From contig JAQSCO010000057.1 of the NCBI GenBank assembly GCA_029945445.1, positions 542,985 to 606,984 on the forward strand: a DNA stretch of 64,000 bases. Direction: 5' to 3'. The notes under the pieces are model-generated. The model was not told where the DNA came from and ran no database searches. It saw nothing but the letters and a program-made list of their open reading frames with translations. The stretch's first letter is position 1. The number at the start of each line of letters is the position of its first letter. The stretch comes from Lacunisphaera sp. GTDB lineage: Bacteria > Verrucomicrobiota > Verrucomicrobiia > Opitutales > Opitutaceae. Positions 45,032-60,619 of the stretch are shown here, piece by piece. The position numbers and the translations under genes are program-made.

Positions 45032-47038
45032 GTGACCACCCCGCCGGCCCAATCGTCCCCCCGACTCCGCGACACTTGCCTCGCGGTGCTGGGCATCGTC
45101 GGCGGCGCGACCCTGGCCTACCACAACACGTTCTCGGTCCCGTTCCTGTTCGACGACAACTCCTCGATCCGGGACAATCCGACGATCCACAGCCTGATGA
45201 CGGCGTGGGCGCCGCCGGCGGCGGGCGGCCTGACCGTCAGCGGCCGGCCGTTCCTCAACTTCACCCTGGCGCTCAACCACCGGCTCAGCGGCTCCGCGGT
45301 CTGGAGCTACCACCTGCTGAACCTGCTTATCCACGTCGCGGCGGGCTGCACGCTGTTCGGCGTCGTGCGGCGGACGCTGCGGCGATTGCCGGGTGTAGGG
45401 GCGCCGCTTGACGGCGCCCGCGGGCGTCCGCAAGGGACGCCCCTCCAGTCCGGTGGCGTGAATCTGACATCGCCTGTAAACAGGCTCCTGCAAAAGGACT
45501 CATTCTGGCTCGCCCTGGCCGTCGCGCTGCTCTGGACCTTGCATCCGCTGCAGACCGAGGCGGTGACCTACATCATCCAACGCGCCGAGTCGCTCGTCGG
45601 GCTGATGTATCTGCTCACGCTGTGGTGCTTCATTCGCGCGACCGAGCCCGGCGCCGCGAAAATCTGGGGGCCGCTGGCCTTCGTGACCTGTCTGCTCGGC
45701 ATGGCGACCAAGGAGGTCATGGTCACCGCGCCGGTCATGATTGTGCTCTATGATCGGGTATTTCTGACCAACACCTGGCGCGAGGTTTGGCAGAAACGCG
45801 GACGCCTTCATCTCGCGCTGGCCGCGACGTGGCTGCTGCTCGGCTGGCTCGTGCTCAGCACCGGCAATCGCGGCGGCACCGCGGGGCTGGGCGGCGAAGT
45901 CTCGCCGTGGGCCTACGCGCTCACGCAGATCGGCGCCGTGGTGCACTACCTCCGGCTCGCGGTCTGGCCGCAGCCGCTGGTCTTCGATTACGGCAAGGCG
46001 CTCGCGGGCGGATGGGGCGACGTCTGGTGGCAGGCCCTCATCCTGTTTCCGCTCGTTGCCGCCAGCTTGTGGGCGGCGTGGCGCGGCCGTGCGGCGGGCT
46101 GGTGCGGCCTGTTTTTCTTTGCGGTGCTGGCGCCGAGCTCGAGTTTCGTGCCGGTCGTGACGCAGACCATGAACGAGCACCGGGTCTACCTCGCGCTGGC
46201 TGCAATCGTGACCTTGGCCGTGACGGGACTTTACGTGGCGTGGGGACGGCGAAGCTTCGCCGTCTTCGCCGTGCTGGCTATCGCGCTCACGGCCGCAACC
46301 GTGCGTCGCAATCACGATTACCGCACCGAACTCGCCTTATGGGAGGACACCGTGCTCAAGCGCCCCGGCAATGCGCGCGCATTTGGCGCGCTGGGGGCCA
46401 TCCACCAGCGCGAGGGCCGGCTCGACCAGGCGCTCGCGGCGCTGCAGGAGGCGGTGCGGGTCGCGCCGCGCTCCGCCGAATCGCACAACAACCTCGGCAA
46501 TGTCTGGATGAAACTCGGCCGCTGGGAGGACGCCCGCCGGGGTTTTGCGCAAGCCTTGGTGCTCAAGCCGGACGATCCGTTTGCCTTGAACAATCTTGGC
46601 AACGCACTCCTCCAGCTCGGCCGCGGGTCGGAGGCGATCACCCGGTTCGAGGCCGCGCTGCGGGCCAAGCCTGATTTTGCGGAGCCGCGCTACAACCTCG
46701 CCAACACCCTCGCGCAGGCCGGCCGCCCGGCCGAGGCGGCGACCCACTACGAGGCCTTCCTGCACGCGCACCCGCACGATGCCGAGGCGCGCTCCAATTA
46801 TGGCAGTGTCCTGCAGGAACTCGGCCGCGCGGAGGACGCCATCACGCAGTTCGAGACCGCGGTGCTGCTGCGGCCCAACGATGCCCGGCTGCACAACAAT
46901 CTCGGCGTGGCGCTGGCCCAGGCCGGCCGGCCGGCCGAGGCCCTCGAGGAATTCCACGAAGCGGTGCGGCTGGATCCGAATTTCCAGGAAGCGCAGATGA
47001 ACGCCGCGCGCGCGGCGCGGGCGCTGGGCAACCGCTGA
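45032..47038 (+). CDS. TMTC-like membrane protein with C-terminal TPR repeats, in-frame repeat insertion
   Basis: A 668-residue protein from GTG 45032 (TTG 45017 is an alternative). The first ~420 residues hold about 10 hydrophobic segments with the DDN motif (FLFDDNSSIRDNPTI) and HPLQTEAVTYI, as in TMTC/O-mannosyltransferase-like (GT-C) proteins. Residues ~435-660 are TPRs (GNARAFGALGAIHQREGRLD and repeats with NNLGNVWMKLGRWEDARRGF). Codons from 45395 to 45446 match a GTAG-footed repeat element and lie in a loop near residue 122, in frame. Function in glycosylation is inferred from family. Confidence 0.8.
   Translation: MTTPPAQSSPRLRDTCLAVLGIVGGATLAYHNTFSVPFLFDDNSSIRDNPTIHSLMTAWAPPAAGGLTVSGRPFLNFTLALNHRLSGSAVWSYHLLNLLIHVAAGCTLFGVVRRTLRRLPGVGAPLDGARGRPQGTPLQSGGVNLTSPVNRLLQKDSFWLALAVALLWTLHPLQTEAVTYIIQRAESLVGLMYLLTLWCFIRATEPGAAKIWGPLAFVTCLLGMATKEVMVTAPVMIVLYDRVFLTNTWREVWQKRGRLHLALAATWLLLGWLVLSTGNRGGTAGLGGEVSPWAYALTQIGAVVHYLRLAVWPQPLVFDYGKALAGGWGDVWWQALILFPLVAASLWAAWRGRAAGWCGLFFFAVLAPSSSFVPVVTQTMNEHRVYLALAAIVTLAVTGLYVAWGRRSFAVFAVLAIALTAATVRRNHDYRTELALWEDTVLKRPGNARAFGALGAIHQREGRLDQALAALQEAVRVAPRSAESHNNLGNVWMKLGRWEDARRGFAQALVLKPDDPFALNNLGNALLQLGRGSEAITRFEAALRAKPDFAEPRYNLANTLAQAGRPAEAATHYEAFLHAHPHDAEARSNYGSVLQELGRAEDAITQFETAVLLRPNDARLHNNLGVALAQAGRPAEALEEFHEAVRLDPNFQEAQMNAARAARALGNR
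45395..45446. repeat. REP/BIME-like element inside the TMTC-like coding sequence
   Basis: Begins GTAG and ends CTCC. Hairpin 1: GGGCGCCG (45399-45406)/CGGCGCCC (45412-45419). Hairpin 2: GGGCGTCC (45422-45429)/GGACGCCC (45435-45442). Read in frame as codons with no stop. Confidence 0.7.
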
Positions 47039-51350: not shown

Positions 51351-54300
51351 ATGTCCGCCCGCGCGAACAAACCCTGGCCTTTCCGCATCGAGTATCCGCC
51401 CGAGCTGCCCATCAGCGCCCGGGCGGACGAGATCGTCGCGGCCATCCGCGACCATCAGGTGCTGATCCTCGCGGGGGAGACCGGCTCGGGCAAAACCACG
51501 CAGATCCCGAAGATGTGCCTCGTGGCGGGCCGGGGCGAGCGCGGGCGCATCGCCTGCACGCAGCCGCGGCGCGTGGCCGCCACCTCGGTCGCCCGCCGCG
51601 TGGCGGAGGAACTGAACGTCACCTACGGCCGCGAGGTCGGCTGCAAGATCCGCTTCGCCGACCAGACCACGGACGCGACCGTCATCAAGTTCATGACCGA
51701 CGGCATGCTGCTCGCCGAGCTGCAGGCCGACCCGGAACTGCGCGCTTACGACACCATCATCGTCGACGAGGCGCACGAGCGCTCGCTCAACATCGACTTC
51801 ATCCTCGGGCATCTCCGCCGCCTGCGCCTGCGCCGGCCGGAGCTGAAGATCGTCATCACCTCGGCGACGATCGATACGGAGGCGTTTTCCAAGGCCTTCG
51901 ACGGCGCGCCGATCATCGAGGTGTCGGGCCGCGTCTATCCGGTGGAGGTCATCTACTCGCCGATCGACGAGATGAAGGGCGACCCATCCTCCGCCAAGGC
52001 TACGGAGGGCAAGCAAGGTGAATACACTTACCTCGACGCGGCCGTCGAGGCGGTCGAGCGCGTGCTGCTCGAGAGCAGCGCCGGCGACATCCTGGTCTTC
52101 CTGCCCACCGAGCGCGACATCCGCGAGGCGCGCGACCTGCTCGAGGGCCGGCGGCTCGGGCGCCTCGAGGTCGTGCCGTTGTTCGGCCGGCTGACCAATG
52201 CCGAGCAGCAGCGCGTGTTCGCGCCGACGCAAAGCCGCAAGATCGTCGTCGCAACCAACATCGCCGAGACCTCGCTGACGATTCCCGGCATCCGCTTCGT
52301 CATCGACACGGGTCTGGCGCGCTTCAGCCGCTACGTGCCGTCGAGCCGCACGCGCCGGCTGCCGGTCGAGGCGGTCTCACAAAGCAGCGCCGACCAGCGC
52401 AAGGGCCGCTGCGGCCGCGTGAGCGACGGTGTGTGCATCCGGCTTTTTTCCGAGCAGGACTTCAACGACCGGCCGCGCTTCACCCAGCCGGAGATCCAGC
52501 GGAGCAACCTCGCGGATGTCATCCTGCGCATGAAGGCGTTCGGCCTCGGCGACATCGAGGAGTTCCCCTTCCTGAACGCGCCGCCGGCCAAGGGCATCCG
52601 CGCCGGTTACGCGCTGCTGCACGAACTCGGCGCGATCGACGAGCTCGGGGCGCTGACCGACGTCGGGCACGACCTGGCGCACCTGCCGGTGGACCCGACG
52701 GTCGGCCGGATGATCCTGCAGGGGCGCACCGAGAAGGCGCTGCGTGAGGTGTTGATCATCGCGGCGGCGCTCAGCATCCAGGATCCGCGCGAGCGGCCGC
52801 TGGACCAGAAGGAGAAGGCCGACACGGCGCACCGGCGCTTCAATCATCCGGATTCCGATTTCCTCGCGCTGCTGGCGATCTGGGAAGACTACCACGACCA
52901 GTTCGAGGCCATGACGCTCGGCAAGCTGCGGAAGTTCTGCACGACGCACTTCCTGTCGTTCATGCGGATGCGCGAGTGGCGCGACGTCTATGCGCAGCTG
53001 GTCGACACGCTGGAGGGGCGCGAGGGTTTCCCGCGGACCTCGATCTACGACGGCGCGAAGCAATGGCAGGACGTGAAGGTCGCGCTCGGCACGCCGGCCT
53101 ACCGTTCCATCCATCGCGCCATCCTGGCCGGCCTGCTGGGCAACATCGCGACCCGCACCGACGAGGGCGACTACCACGCGACGCACGACCGGCGCGTGAA
53201 TGTTTTCCCGGGCTCGGCGTTGTTCGAGAAGAGGGAACAGATCAGAAACCCGCCCGGAGGTCGGGTTCCACCTTCCAAGACACCCCCCAAGGCCAAGGTC
53301 GCGAAATGGCTCATGGCGGCGGAGATCATGGAGACGGCCCGGGTGTATGCACGCACCTGCGCGCGCATCGATCCGCAGTGGGTGCTTGATCTCGGCGCCC
53401 ACATCATACGCATCGCGCACAGCGAGCCGTTCTGGAACGCCGAGGCCGGCCGCGTGCTCGTGAAGGAGCGCCGCCGGCTCTACAACCTCGAGCTGGAGAC
53501 GCGCTCGGTCGGTTACGGGAAGATCAACCCGCTGCACGCGACGGAGATTTTCATCCGCGAGGGGCTGGTCGGCGACACGATCACGTGGCCGTTCGACTTC
53601 ATCGCGCACAACCGCCGCGTGCGCGACCGGGCGGAGACGCTGCTCACCCGCACGCGCAGCGCGGGCTACATGAACCTCGACGAGGCGGTCTACCAGTTCT
53701 ACGCGGCGCAGTTGCTGGTAGGGGCCGTTGCCCCCAACGGCCCTTCTGCGGATCCCAGGGCGGTTGAGGGCAACCGCCCCTACCTCGGCATCAGCAGCGT
53801 CCCCGAGCTCATCGACTTCGTGCGGCACCAGCAGGCGACGCAGCCGAAGTTCCTTTTCCTGTCCGAGGCCAACCTGCGGCCGTCGGTCGACGTCGAGCAC
53901 GATGCGGCGGATTTCCCGGAGGCCCTGCCCGTTGACAACCGCGTGCTCCCGCTGGCCTATACTTACCAGCCAGGCAAACCGGAAGACGGCGTCACGGTGC
54001 GCGTGACGATCGCCGAGGCCGGGACGCTGACCGCCGCCGCGCTCGACTGGGCGGTACCGGGACATTTGCCCGAGAAGGTGGAACTGCTGCTGAAGGCGCT
54101 GCCGAAGGAGCAGCGGCGCAGCCTGATCCCGCTGACGGAGACGGCGCAGAAATTGACGCGCGATCTCGCGCTGATCAGTGCCCGGCCCAAACAGCCAACC
54201 CTGGCCGAGGCGCTGGCCGAACTGCTGTCGCCGCGGCTCGGCGTGAAGATCGACCCGGCCTTGTGGAGCGACAAGCCGCTGCCCGACCATCTGCGCGTGC

Positions 54301-55370
54301 GCGTCGAGATCGTGGACAACCAGGGAAAGGTCGTGGGCGCCTCGCGCGGCCTGGTGGAACTCCAGACGCAGCTGCACGGCCGGCGCCGCGAAGTGAGCCA
54401 GCACGCGGCGACGGTCGACAACAGCGCGTGGCGCGCCGCGCGGGCCAAGTGGGAAGGCGAACCGGCCGGCGATTGGAAGTTCGGCGACCTGCCCCAGCAA
54501 ATCACCGTGAGCGAGCATCACGGCGTGCCCGTGCACGCCTATCCCGGACTGAAGGCGATGCCCGCCGGCGTCGCCGTGCGGTTGTTCGCCACGCCCGAGG
54601 AATCCGCGGCGGCCACCCGCGCGGGCCTCGGCAAACTCTTCGCCACGCAACTGCGCCACGACCTCGGCTGGCTGGAGAAGGATCTCAAGGCGCTGCGGCT
54701 GCTCGGTCCGCTGGCGGTGACGCTGACGACCCCCGAGGCGCTGCAGTCGGACGCGCTGGCCTCGGTCGTGCGTTGGGTCGGCGGGCGCGAGGTGCAGCCG
54801 CTGCACGCGGCGGCGTTCGCCAGGAAACTGGAGGAGGCGAAGCGCGACCTGCGCGGGTTGGTGCCGAGGCTCAGCGACGGGTTGAAGGAAATTTTCACGC
54901 TGCGGCTCGCGCTGGAGGTGCACAAGGCGCCTTACCCCGGCCTGGCCGCGGACCTCGCTGCGCTGCTGCCGCCGGACTTCCTCAAGACCACGCCGTTCGA
55001 GCGCGTGCCGCAGCTGGCGCGGTATCTGAAAGGCATGCAGGCGCGGGCCGAGCGTTGGAAGCGCGATGCTGCCAAGGATGAGTCCCGGGCGAAGGAGCTC
55101 GCGCCGTTTACCGCCGCCCTGAAAAAACTCGGCCCCGCGGCCGGCGACGTGCGCTGGCTGGTCGAGGAATTCCGCGTGAGCCTCTTCGCGCAGGAGCTCG
55201 GCACGGCCGAGCCGGTGTCGGCGGTGCGGCTCGAGCGGGCCTTGCAGGAGGTCGCCGGCCTGGCCGGCCCGGTGCCCTCGCCAAAGCCAGCCGCGATTGC
55301 GCCGGTGACGGGCAAAAAAGGCGCGCCGCTCAAGAGCCTCGGCTCGCTGGACCAGCTTTTCCGCAAGTAA
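51351..55370 (+). CDS. hrpA: ATP-dependent RNA helicase HrpA-like, with two in-frame repeat insertions
   Basis: A 1339-residue DEAH-box helicase. Walker A GETGSGKTT (Lys48), DEAH (Asp139-His142), TSATID, VFLPTERDIREA, TNIAETSLTIPG and QRKGRCGR are all present, followed by HA2, OB-fold and DUF3418-type C-terminal domains. The length suits HrpA (~1300). Two short segments look inserted. One, at 51987-52008, gives PSSAKATEGK; the other, at 53718-53783, is a 66-bp GTAG/CTAC element read as exactly 22 codons (from residue 790). Both keep the frame. Confidence 0.93.
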   Translation: MSARANKPWPFRIEYPPELPISARADEIVAAIRDHQVLILAGETGSGKTTQIPKMCLVAGRGERGRIACTQPRRVAATSVARRVAEELNVTYGREVGCKIRFADQTTDATVIKFMTDGMLLAELQADPELRAYDTIIVDEAHERSLNIDFILGHLRRLRLRRPELKIVITSATIDTEAFSKAFDGAPIIEVSGRVYPVEVIYSPIDEMKGDPSSAKATEGKQGEYTYLDAAVEAVERVLLESSAGDILVFLPTERDIREARDLLEGRRLGRLEVVPLFGRLTNAEQQRVFAPTQSRKIVVATNIAETSLTIPGIRFVIDTGLARFSRYVPSSRTRRLPVEAVSQSSADQRKGRCGRVSDGVCIRLFSEQDFNDRPRFTQPEIQRSNLADVILRMKAFGLGDIEEFPFLNAPPAKGIRAGYALLHELGAIDELGALTDVGHDLAHLPVDPTVGRMILQGRTEKALREVLIIAAALSIQDPRERPLDQKEKADTAHRRFNHPDSDFLALLAIWEDYHDQFEAMTLGKLRKFCTTHFLSFMRMREWRDVYAQLVDTLEGREGFPRTSIYDGAKQWQDVKVALGTPAYRSIHRAILAGLLGNIATRTDEGDYHATHDRRVNVFPGSALFEKREQIRNPPGGRVPPSKTPPKAKVAKWLMAAEIMETARVYARTCARIDPQWVLDLGAHIIRIAHSEPFWNAEAGRVLVKERRRLYNLELETRSVGYGKINPLHATEIFIREGLVGDTITWPFDFIAHNRRVRDRAETLLTRTRSAGYMNLDEAVYQFYAAQLLVGAVAPNGPSADPRAVEGNRPYLGISSVPELIDFVRHQQATQPKFLFLSEANLRPSVDVEHDAADFPEALPVDNRVLPLAYTYQPGKPEDGVTVRVTIAEAGTLTAAALDWAVPGHLPEKVELLLKALPKEQRRSLIPLTETAQKLTRDLALISARPKQPTLAEALAELLSPRLGVKIDPALWSDKPLPDHLRVRVEIVDNQGKVVGASRGLVELQTQLHGRRREVSQHAATVDNSAWRAARAKWEGEPAGDWKFGDLPQQITVSEHHGVPVHAYPGLKAMPAGVAVRLFATPEESAAATRAGLGKLFATQLRHDLGWLEKDLKALRLLGPLAVTLTTPEALQSDALASVVRWVGGREVQPLHAAAFARKLEEAKRDLRGLVPRLSDGLKEIFTLRLALEVHKAPYPGLAADLAALLPPDFLKTTPFERVPQLARYLKGMQARAERWKRDAAKDESRAKELAPFTAALKKLGPAAGDVRWLVEEFRVSLFAQELGTAEPVSAVRLERALQEVAGLAGPVPSPKPAAIAPVTGKKGAPLKSLGSLDQLFRK
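51987..52008. repeat. Short palindrome inside hrpA (PSSAKATEGK segment)
   Basis: Arms CCTCCG (51988-51993) and CGGAGG (52003-52008) around CCAAGGCTA. It is read in frame and appears between the first helicase domain and the next conserved part, in a variable loop. Confidence 0.55.
53718..53783. repeat. REP/BIME-like element (66 bp) inside hrpA
   Basis: Starts GTAG, ends CTAC. Two perfect 9-bp hairpins with 4-nt loops: GGGCCGTTG (53722-53730)/CAACGGCCC (53735-53743), and GGGCGGTTG (53758-53766)/CAACCGCCC (53771-53779). The first base is codon position 1, so it adds exactly 22 codons with no stop. Confidence 0.85.
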
Positions 55371-59677: not shown

Positions 59678-60619
59678 ATGAAATCCCTGATTCCTCTGCT
59701 CACGCTGGGGGCCCTGCTGGCGGCGCCGGCGGTGCTCTCGGCCAAGATCACGCGCACGGTTGAAAAGACCTTCACGGTCCAGCCTGGCGGCAACTTCAAG
59801 GCCTCGACCCAGGGCGGCGACATCACCATCCGGACCGCCGATACGCCCGAGGTCCGCATCACGGCCAAGCAGGTCATCCGCGCCTCGTCGGAAAAGGAAG
59901 CGGACGAAATCCTGGAAGACCTCGCGATGACCTTTGAGCAGAACGGCAACGATGTTGTGGCCGAGGCCAAGTATGAGAAGGGCCGCATCGGCATGCACTG
60001 GGGCAGCTGGCCGCCGGTCCAGGTCAGCTTCACGGTCACGGTGCCGAAGAATTTCAACCTCAACCTGAACACGTCCGGCGGCGACATCGCCGTGGCCAGC
60101 CTGAAGGGCGACGTCCGCGCCCGCACCAGCGGCGGCGGGCTGAAGTTCGACCGCATCGACGGCGACATCGACGGCCACACCTCGGGCGGCGACATCGTCC
60201 TGACCGAGGGCACGGCCCGCGCCAAGCTCGGCACCTCCGGCGGTGACATCCAGATCGACCGGGCCGGCGGCCCGACGGAGGTTTCGACCTCGGGCGGGGA
60301 CATCACCATCAATTCCGTCGCCCAGCTCATCAGCGCCACCACCTCGGGCGGCAACGTCAAGGCGGTCCTCACCGAGGCCATCAAGCAGGATACGCTGCTC
60401 AGCACCTCCGGCGGCGACGTGCGCGTGCGCGTCGTCAAGGGCGCCGGCTTCCAGCTCGACGCGAGCACCTCGGGTGGCGACGTCAATGCCGAGGGCCTGA
60501 CCCTGACCATCGACAAGGGTGGCGTGGGCAAGAGCCGGCTGGTCGGCAGTGTCAATGGCGGCGGCCCGCGCCTGAAGCTCCGTTCCAGCGGCGGCGACAT
60601 CACGATCAAGACCGACTGA
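59678..60619 (+). CDS. DUF4097-like exported beta-repeat protein
   Basis: A 313-residue protein. Signal peptide to about residue 22 (ending LSAK). The mature chain is a regular ladder of turns marked by TSGGD or SGGD/SGGN units about every 17-22 residues (TSGGDIAVASLKGDVRARTS, TSGGDIVLTEGTARAKLG, and so on), a DUF4097/adhesin-type right-handed beta structure. Periplasmic or outer-membrane; function unknown. It is 62 bp after the previous gene. Confidence 0.82.
   Translation: MKSLIPLLTLGALLAAPAVLSAKITRTVEKTFTVQPGGNFKASTQGGDITIRTADTPEVRITAKQVIRASSEKEADEILEDLAMTFEQNGNDVVAEAKYEKGRIGMHWGSWPPVQVSFTVTVPKNFNLNLNTSGGDIAVASLKGDVRARTSGGGLKFDRIDGDIDGHTSGGDIVLTEGTARAKLGTSGGDIQIDRAGGPTEVSTSGGDITINSVAQLISATTSGGNVKAVLTEAIKQDTLLSTSGGDVRVRVVKGAGFQLDASTSGGDVNAEGLTLTIDKGGVGKSRLVGSVNGGGPRLKLRSSGGDITIKTD

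Follow-up and report, generated by a model that had tools for sequence, protein, structure and literature searches.

How a strongly palindromic segment came to lie, in frame, inside the gene of an RNA helicase is the question raised by the hrpA locus of Lacunisphaera sp., which we analyzed within a 64,000-nt stretch of DNA (hereafter the window). The segment runs in the order of GTAG, a perfect hairpin with a 9-bp stem and a 4-nt loop, a 14-nt spacer, the mirror hairpin and CTAC (53718–53783); it starts at the first position of codon 790 and is free of stop codons, so that the 1339-residue frame stays open. The coordinates, the feet, the two perfect stems with their loops, the length of 66 bp, the codon-position-1 start and the lack of a stop given in a preliminary description of this DNA were all exact. 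Both arms carry the unpaired GTAG tag at the hairpin foot that marks GTAG REPs, and both stems and loops fall inside the ranges given for these repeats in the part of PMC3733652 considered here (stem 5–13 bp, loop 2–20 nt). Folded together with 10-bp margins, the element beat 200 of 200 dinucleotide shuffles (z = −4.71, DNA parameters), and the predicted fold is a single long hairpin, because the two arms also complement each other. The pattern of these arms, which define family A, matched the window twice at up to three mismatches, both times within the hrpA element, and shuffles gave 0 matches. An Rfam search over the window yielded two tRNAs only, with no match at the element.

Table 1. Features of the hrpA locus in the window, and recognized repeats at the same loop of hrpA in genomes of the genus.
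Feature	Location	Strand	Details
hrpA, ATP-dependent RNA helicase	51351..55370	+	1339 aa, open frame; TIGR01967 1213.3 bits, cut-off 722.75
Repeat E core, second repeat in hrpA	51993..52013	+	Read as AKATEGK (aa 215-221); 7 genome matches at <=2 mismatches
Single family C arm, third repeat in hrpA	53247..53272	-	Read as NPPGGRVPP; 2 mismatches; C arms at same site in several relatives
Family A GTAG REP dimer	53717..53784	+	66 bp from GTAG to CTAC, 68 bp with outer G and C; codons 790-811, read as VGAVAPNGPSADPRAVEGNRPY
First arm of dimer: GTAG, 9-bp stem, loop CCCC	53718..53743	+	
Second arm of dimer, inverted: GTAG, 9-bp stem, loop CCCT on - strand	53758..53783	-	
GTAG palindrome pair outside hrpA	45394..45447	+	Resembles family F (3 and 4 mismatches)
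Family A at loop	G000, G017, G009, G005		Arm patterns; DNA divergent in G017, G009, G005
Family B at loop	G018, G020		Arm patterns; G020 contig ends inside insert
Family C at loop	G012		Arm pattern
C arm with repeat E inside dimer, at loop	G010, G011		DNA patterns
Repeat E within another insert, at loop	G015		DNA pattern

The element belongs to a dispersed family. In the host genome (G000, 4.17 Mb in 66 contigs), 16 separate places matched it with a best E of ≤2.9e-7 each, and the next place reached only E 0.53. No open frame spanned the element and its flanks at 11 of these places, and the hrpA copy alone passed the coding test (1/16), with one further place (L005) scoring 0.09, just below the limit of 0.10. 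In calibration, 5% of real-gene windows scored <0.05 and the best wrong-strand frame had a median of 0.09; because the test passes just 35 of 60 arms within hrpA, this count, like that of 8/40 given below for another genome, could be an underestimate, with errors possible in single cases. When two contigs of the host genome, 1.17 Mb together, were scanned for GTRG-hairpin dimers irrespective of family, 24 were found; six order-2 Markov copies, three for each contig, contained none. According to gene calls by a codon model built for this analysis, 18 of the 24 dimers, all families included, are intergenic, one lies at a gene edge and five lie inside predicted genes, namely hrpA, a gene for a metallophosphatase/5′-nucleotidase-like protein, two Ser/Thr kinase genes and one doubtful case. 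As a population the dimers are therefore mostly intergenic, as is typical of GTAG REPs. The genic dimer at C60:258865 was set aside as probably no real repeat, its arms being unlike the others.

Further repeats were observed in passing. In each of the two Ser/Thr kinase genes (C60:507435–509057 and C60:528187–531846, in L264 and L265), a related dimer of the GTGG type is read in frame (VERxDP...ALGSARST) downstream of the part encoding the kinase domain. Within the window, the GTAG palindrome pair outside hrpA (GTAGGGGCGCC..., arms 82% complementary) is similar to family F, the repeats found around a RAYT-type match at another place in the genome, and repeated GGGCGGCGACATC-type coding units (families D1, D9 and D14) at 59794–60614 probably belong to a repeat protein.

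To place the insert in the protein, Pfam domains and a predicted model were compared. Pfam assigned residues 28–357 to the helicase domains, 587–685 to OB_NTP_bind and 699–1299 to DUF3418 (PF11898). In the model, which covers residues 640–960 and was built on 51 sequences (mean pLDDT 83.6, pTM 0.59), the insert lies between two helices with a pLDDT of about 50. The insert probably sits in a flexible DUF3418 loop, away from the helicase domains, and its initial assignment to an 'essential-type helicase motif region' has to be given up, as Pfam and the model both put it outside those domains, in a low-confidence loop. Solved structures of HrpA exist.

Comparison across the genus revealed empty, filled and differently filled forms of this loop. 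Relatives with hrpA include Lacunisphaera, Opitutus and Opitutaceae; the genus set comprised 21 genomes, the host included, and hrpA covered the site in 18 of them (no covering match in G008, G013 and G019). The site is empty in five (G001, G003, G004, G007 and G014) and filled in 13, in line with the predicted absence of the insert from the HrpA of many close relatives. Between fixed points the filled site measures 135 bp and the nearest empty ones 66 bp; the net gain of 69 bp exceeds the element's own 66 bp, and therefore one flanking codon differs too. Besides the recognized fillings (Table 1), that of G016 resembles a decayed C by eye only, with no arm match at the site and no C match in the genome, and the inserts of G002 and G006 match no arm pattern and hence no recognized family; the latter two may be relics, because both genomes are without A, B, C or Y1_Tnp matches. 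The reading frame remains open in the insert-bearing hrpA genes of G017, G009, G005 and G012. Matches to families A, B and C occur in 15, 12 and 14 of the 21 genomes, respectively, and the recognized fillings mostly come from families dispersed in their own host, with 61 A matches in G017 and 64 in G005, 23 B in G018, and 75 C in G012 and 73 in G011, counts in which both strands of one copy may be included. The empty-site genome G004, counted in the same way, still holds 9 A, 19 B and 58 C matches, which indicates that the elements are not scarce there. Among relatives below about 50% identity the stretch is mostly 57–72 bp long, that is, of the empty form, with exceptions of 90 bp (L090) and 111 bp (L087, Vibrio), and none of the distant HrpA proteins compared has the 22 residues, whose conservation there would, according to the preliminary description, have spoken against an insertion. 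The dispersed copies together with the empty sites in relatives bear out its view of a REP/BIME-like element inserted in frame.

In an HrpA protein tree from which the insert regions were removed (70 of 74 distinct sequences retained), filled, empty and different-family states interleave. G020 (family B) and G016 are sisters with a support of 1.0, and so are G005 (family A) and G015, although the latter pair has a support of only 58 in the nucleotide tree. The empty G004 pairs with G012 (C) and the empty G007 with G011 (C and E) in both protein and nucleotide trees.

The loop is not the only place in hrpA that holds repeats. Two more in the same gene, the repeat E core and the family C arm (Table 1), had been overlooked earlier; repeat E is also nested in family C dimers in hrpA of G010 and G011. 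We searched hrpA genes with the arm patterns of families A, B, C, F and G plus repeat E, and all matches came from A, B, C and E. Across 46 hrpA genes, some of them partial, there were 77 arm matches, versus 1 with reversed patterns. At 37 loci with flanks, 60 arms fell within the 134 kb of hrpA and 9 within the 245 kb of flanking DNA, a roughly 12-fold difference in density. Both counts are tilted towards hrpA by A, B and C patterns partly taken from hrpA inserts, and the excess includes insertions common to related species by descent. The matches cluster at aa ~212, 433, 637, 790–808, 1145–1150, 1260 and 1307–1314 (window numbering), and at the same 37 loci 35 arms in hrpA and 2 in the flanks passed the coding test. 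Less open to the bias of patterns taken from hrpA inserts is the count in the complete genome G012, where hrpA makes up ~0.1% of the sequence and contains 3 of the 39 listed places of family B (42 matches reported). The alignment shows hrpA inserts at several of the same loops in another complete genome. Within hrpA, family A is read in a single frame (8/8 and 9/9 arms) and B nearly so (15/15 and 14/15), with less uniformity for C (13/15 minus arms) and E (8/11 plus arms); a uniform reading frame was dropped as a mark of selection, since a second frame for B occurs in other genes (L325 and L331).

Other conserved genes of G012 also host such repeats in frame. Eight of 40 further loci (six with A and 34 with B, the latter being the listed places outside hrpA minus one beside a RAYT-type match) passed the coding test, and the host proteins match RlmD, Mfd, a TatD-type nuclease, NAD synthase, an FMN-dependent dehydrogenase, UvrA, an RsmB/F-type methyltransferase and WD40 repeats, where some scores fall short of the curated cut-offs and the locus ends truncate the frames of Mfd and UvrA. 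These hosts fit the leaning to DNA and RNA enzymes published in PMC3733652, as far as the part compared goes.

That arms are denser in hrpA than in the DNA around it could also mean that the inserts are selected and not merely tolerated: hairpins in the hrpA mRNA would let translation sense the helicase's own activity, an autoregulation for which the gene collects them. The use of several sites and families in one gene would fit this, as would the tendency, described for other species in the consulted part of PMC3733652, for intragenic REPs to occur in nucleic-acid genes. We nevertheless consider such autoregulation unlikely, as the insert is missing at this site in 5/18 genus genomes, the G002 and G006 inserts there match no arm pattern, the loop is predicted with low confidence, as disorder would give, and unrelated enzymes carry such inserts too. 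Far less probable is an ancestral HrpA segment that is merely palindrome-like and was never inserted; the presence of the same family at the site in four genus genomes would agree with it, but the dispersed copies, the empty sites in close relatives and the other families at the same point do not. An assembly or binning artefact, conceivable for a 66-contig draft, is just as improbable, given that G017, G009 and G005 have this family at the site in divergent DNA, that hrpA of the single-contig G012 has inserts too, and that the frame is open in those genes.

We conclude, with a probability of roughly 0.88, that the segment is a GTAG-tagged REP dimer, a BIME/REPIN-like miniature element of a family dispersed in an Opitutaceae-type genome, which was inserted in frame into a flexible helix–helix loop of the DUF3418 region of HrpA. 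The element would have moved through single-stranded DNA by means of an IS200-like (HUH/Y1) RAYT transposase and landed in frame in the flexible loop, so that its 22 residues would be translated; selection would then remove out-of-frame or harmful inserts and keep those in tolerant loops, and the 22-residue peptide is probably without function.

Candidate transposases are widespread in the genus, with 85 RAYT-type (PF01797, Y1_Tnp) matches in 16 of the 21 genomes, including five in the host genome, three of them over the cut-off. In G012, family B dimers lie on both sides of a RAYT-type match that is weak (22.8 bits) and passes the cut-off only together with neighbouring matches. In the host genome, GTAG arms of family F, six in number, lie on both sides of another match (30.2 bits; L298, G000:C45:80000–83500), likely a REP–RAYT unit of this genome. 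Family A was seen on both sides of a RAYT-type match at none of the five G000 matches and 28 other genus loci inspected, of the 85 genus matches; in G009 one family A dimer is located ~1.7 kb from such a match, on one side. By analogy, it is plausible that family A was moved by a RAYT.

The interleaving of loop states may have a further source, to which the sequence next to the insert points. The serine pair 3′ of the insert is encoded as AGY-AGY in 11 of the 12 filled genus members with sequence (TCC-AGC in G009), and the same site reads TCN-GCN (four) or TCN-TCC (one) in the five empty genomes. For a 117-bp tract (aa 813–852), which was picked after this codon pattern had been noticed, 17 sequences, the partial L066 left out, rejected the gene tree (AU p 0.003) and did not reject monophyly of the filled alleles (0.41), which the rest of hrpA rejects (1.6e-6). 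Among 65 overlapping windows along the gene (L061 and L065 left out too), three had AU <0.05 for the gene tree (uncorrected), all of them touching the insert, and the next lowest values came from windows at two other repeat sites (aa 201–249 and 1280–1318). When residues alone were used, the signal peaked at the insert, with aa 1280–1319 nearly equal. When third positions alone were used, windows at or beside the insert ranked near the top and the gene tree was rejected by 0 of the 7 best; majority-residue third positions gave one nominal rejection (AU 0.03, uncorrected) among the seven best windows. The signal is therefore mostly one of residues and first and second positions, and the synonymous-site test is weak. 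These results suggest an exchange of a ~300-bp hrpA tract between species, which is perhaps partly behind the filled, empty and differently filled loop. The two readings are an exchange of short hrpA tracts and an adaptation of the flanks to the insert; we lean towards the former, short of claiming it. Tentatively, and at slightly less than even odds, hrpA of Opitutaceae may be a genuine hotspot, in which unrelated REP families landed independently in the same surface loops, turn over and move between species as short hrpA tracts, the protein keeping a fossil record of successive REP families.

Repeats of this kind within genes have been described. The part of PMC3733652 considered here reports intragenic GTAG REPs, with the highest numbers in Opitutus terrae and RNA helicases among the hosts, suggests that intragenic REPs are tolerated in linkers or loops, and describes different REPs at about the same recB site in two Xanthomonas species; the earlier remark that coding insertion is rarely noted outside Rickettsia was overstated in view of this paper. 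The hrpA element shares with these repeats the GTAG foot, stem and loop in range, frequent inverted dimers, dispersed copies, in-frame copies encoding 20–30 residues, RNA helicase hosts, double insertions in one gene and even the bacterial family (Opitutus terrae). What sets the present case apart is that a single gene was traced through many species and showed empty sites, several families at one loop, further loops in use and an excess over flanks, whereas recB is the only same-site case in that part of the paper. With REPINs and BIMEs mobilized by RAYTs it has in common two inverted REP arms, dispersal, and RAYT-type matches flanked by repeats in the genus (B and F), but the element is coding here and the pairing with a RAYT was seen, at the loci inspected, for B and F, not for A. 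Rickettsia palindromic elements, likewise palindromic inserts read in frame in proteins thought to be functional (as the consulted text of PMC3733652 has it), differ in sequence and belong to another phylum. Among the articles listed in our literature searches, none came up that described several REP families replacing one another at a single loop within a genus, or an excess in hrpA, and no listed title dealt with repeats in hrpA. The 'RNA helicases in O. terrae' of PMC3733652 may include hrpA. Measured against the part compared, in-frame GTAG repeats in this bacterial family are known, and what is new is the same-loop turnover of several REP families.

In-frame palindromic elements offer a traceable route for mobile DNA to new protein sequence. 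With empty, filled and differently filled sites of one gene in many species, the rates of REP insertion, decay and replacement would become measurable in a way that intergenic copies hardly allow. The surplus of repeats in hrpA further poses the question of whether insertion, tolerance or selection is what makes a gene a host.
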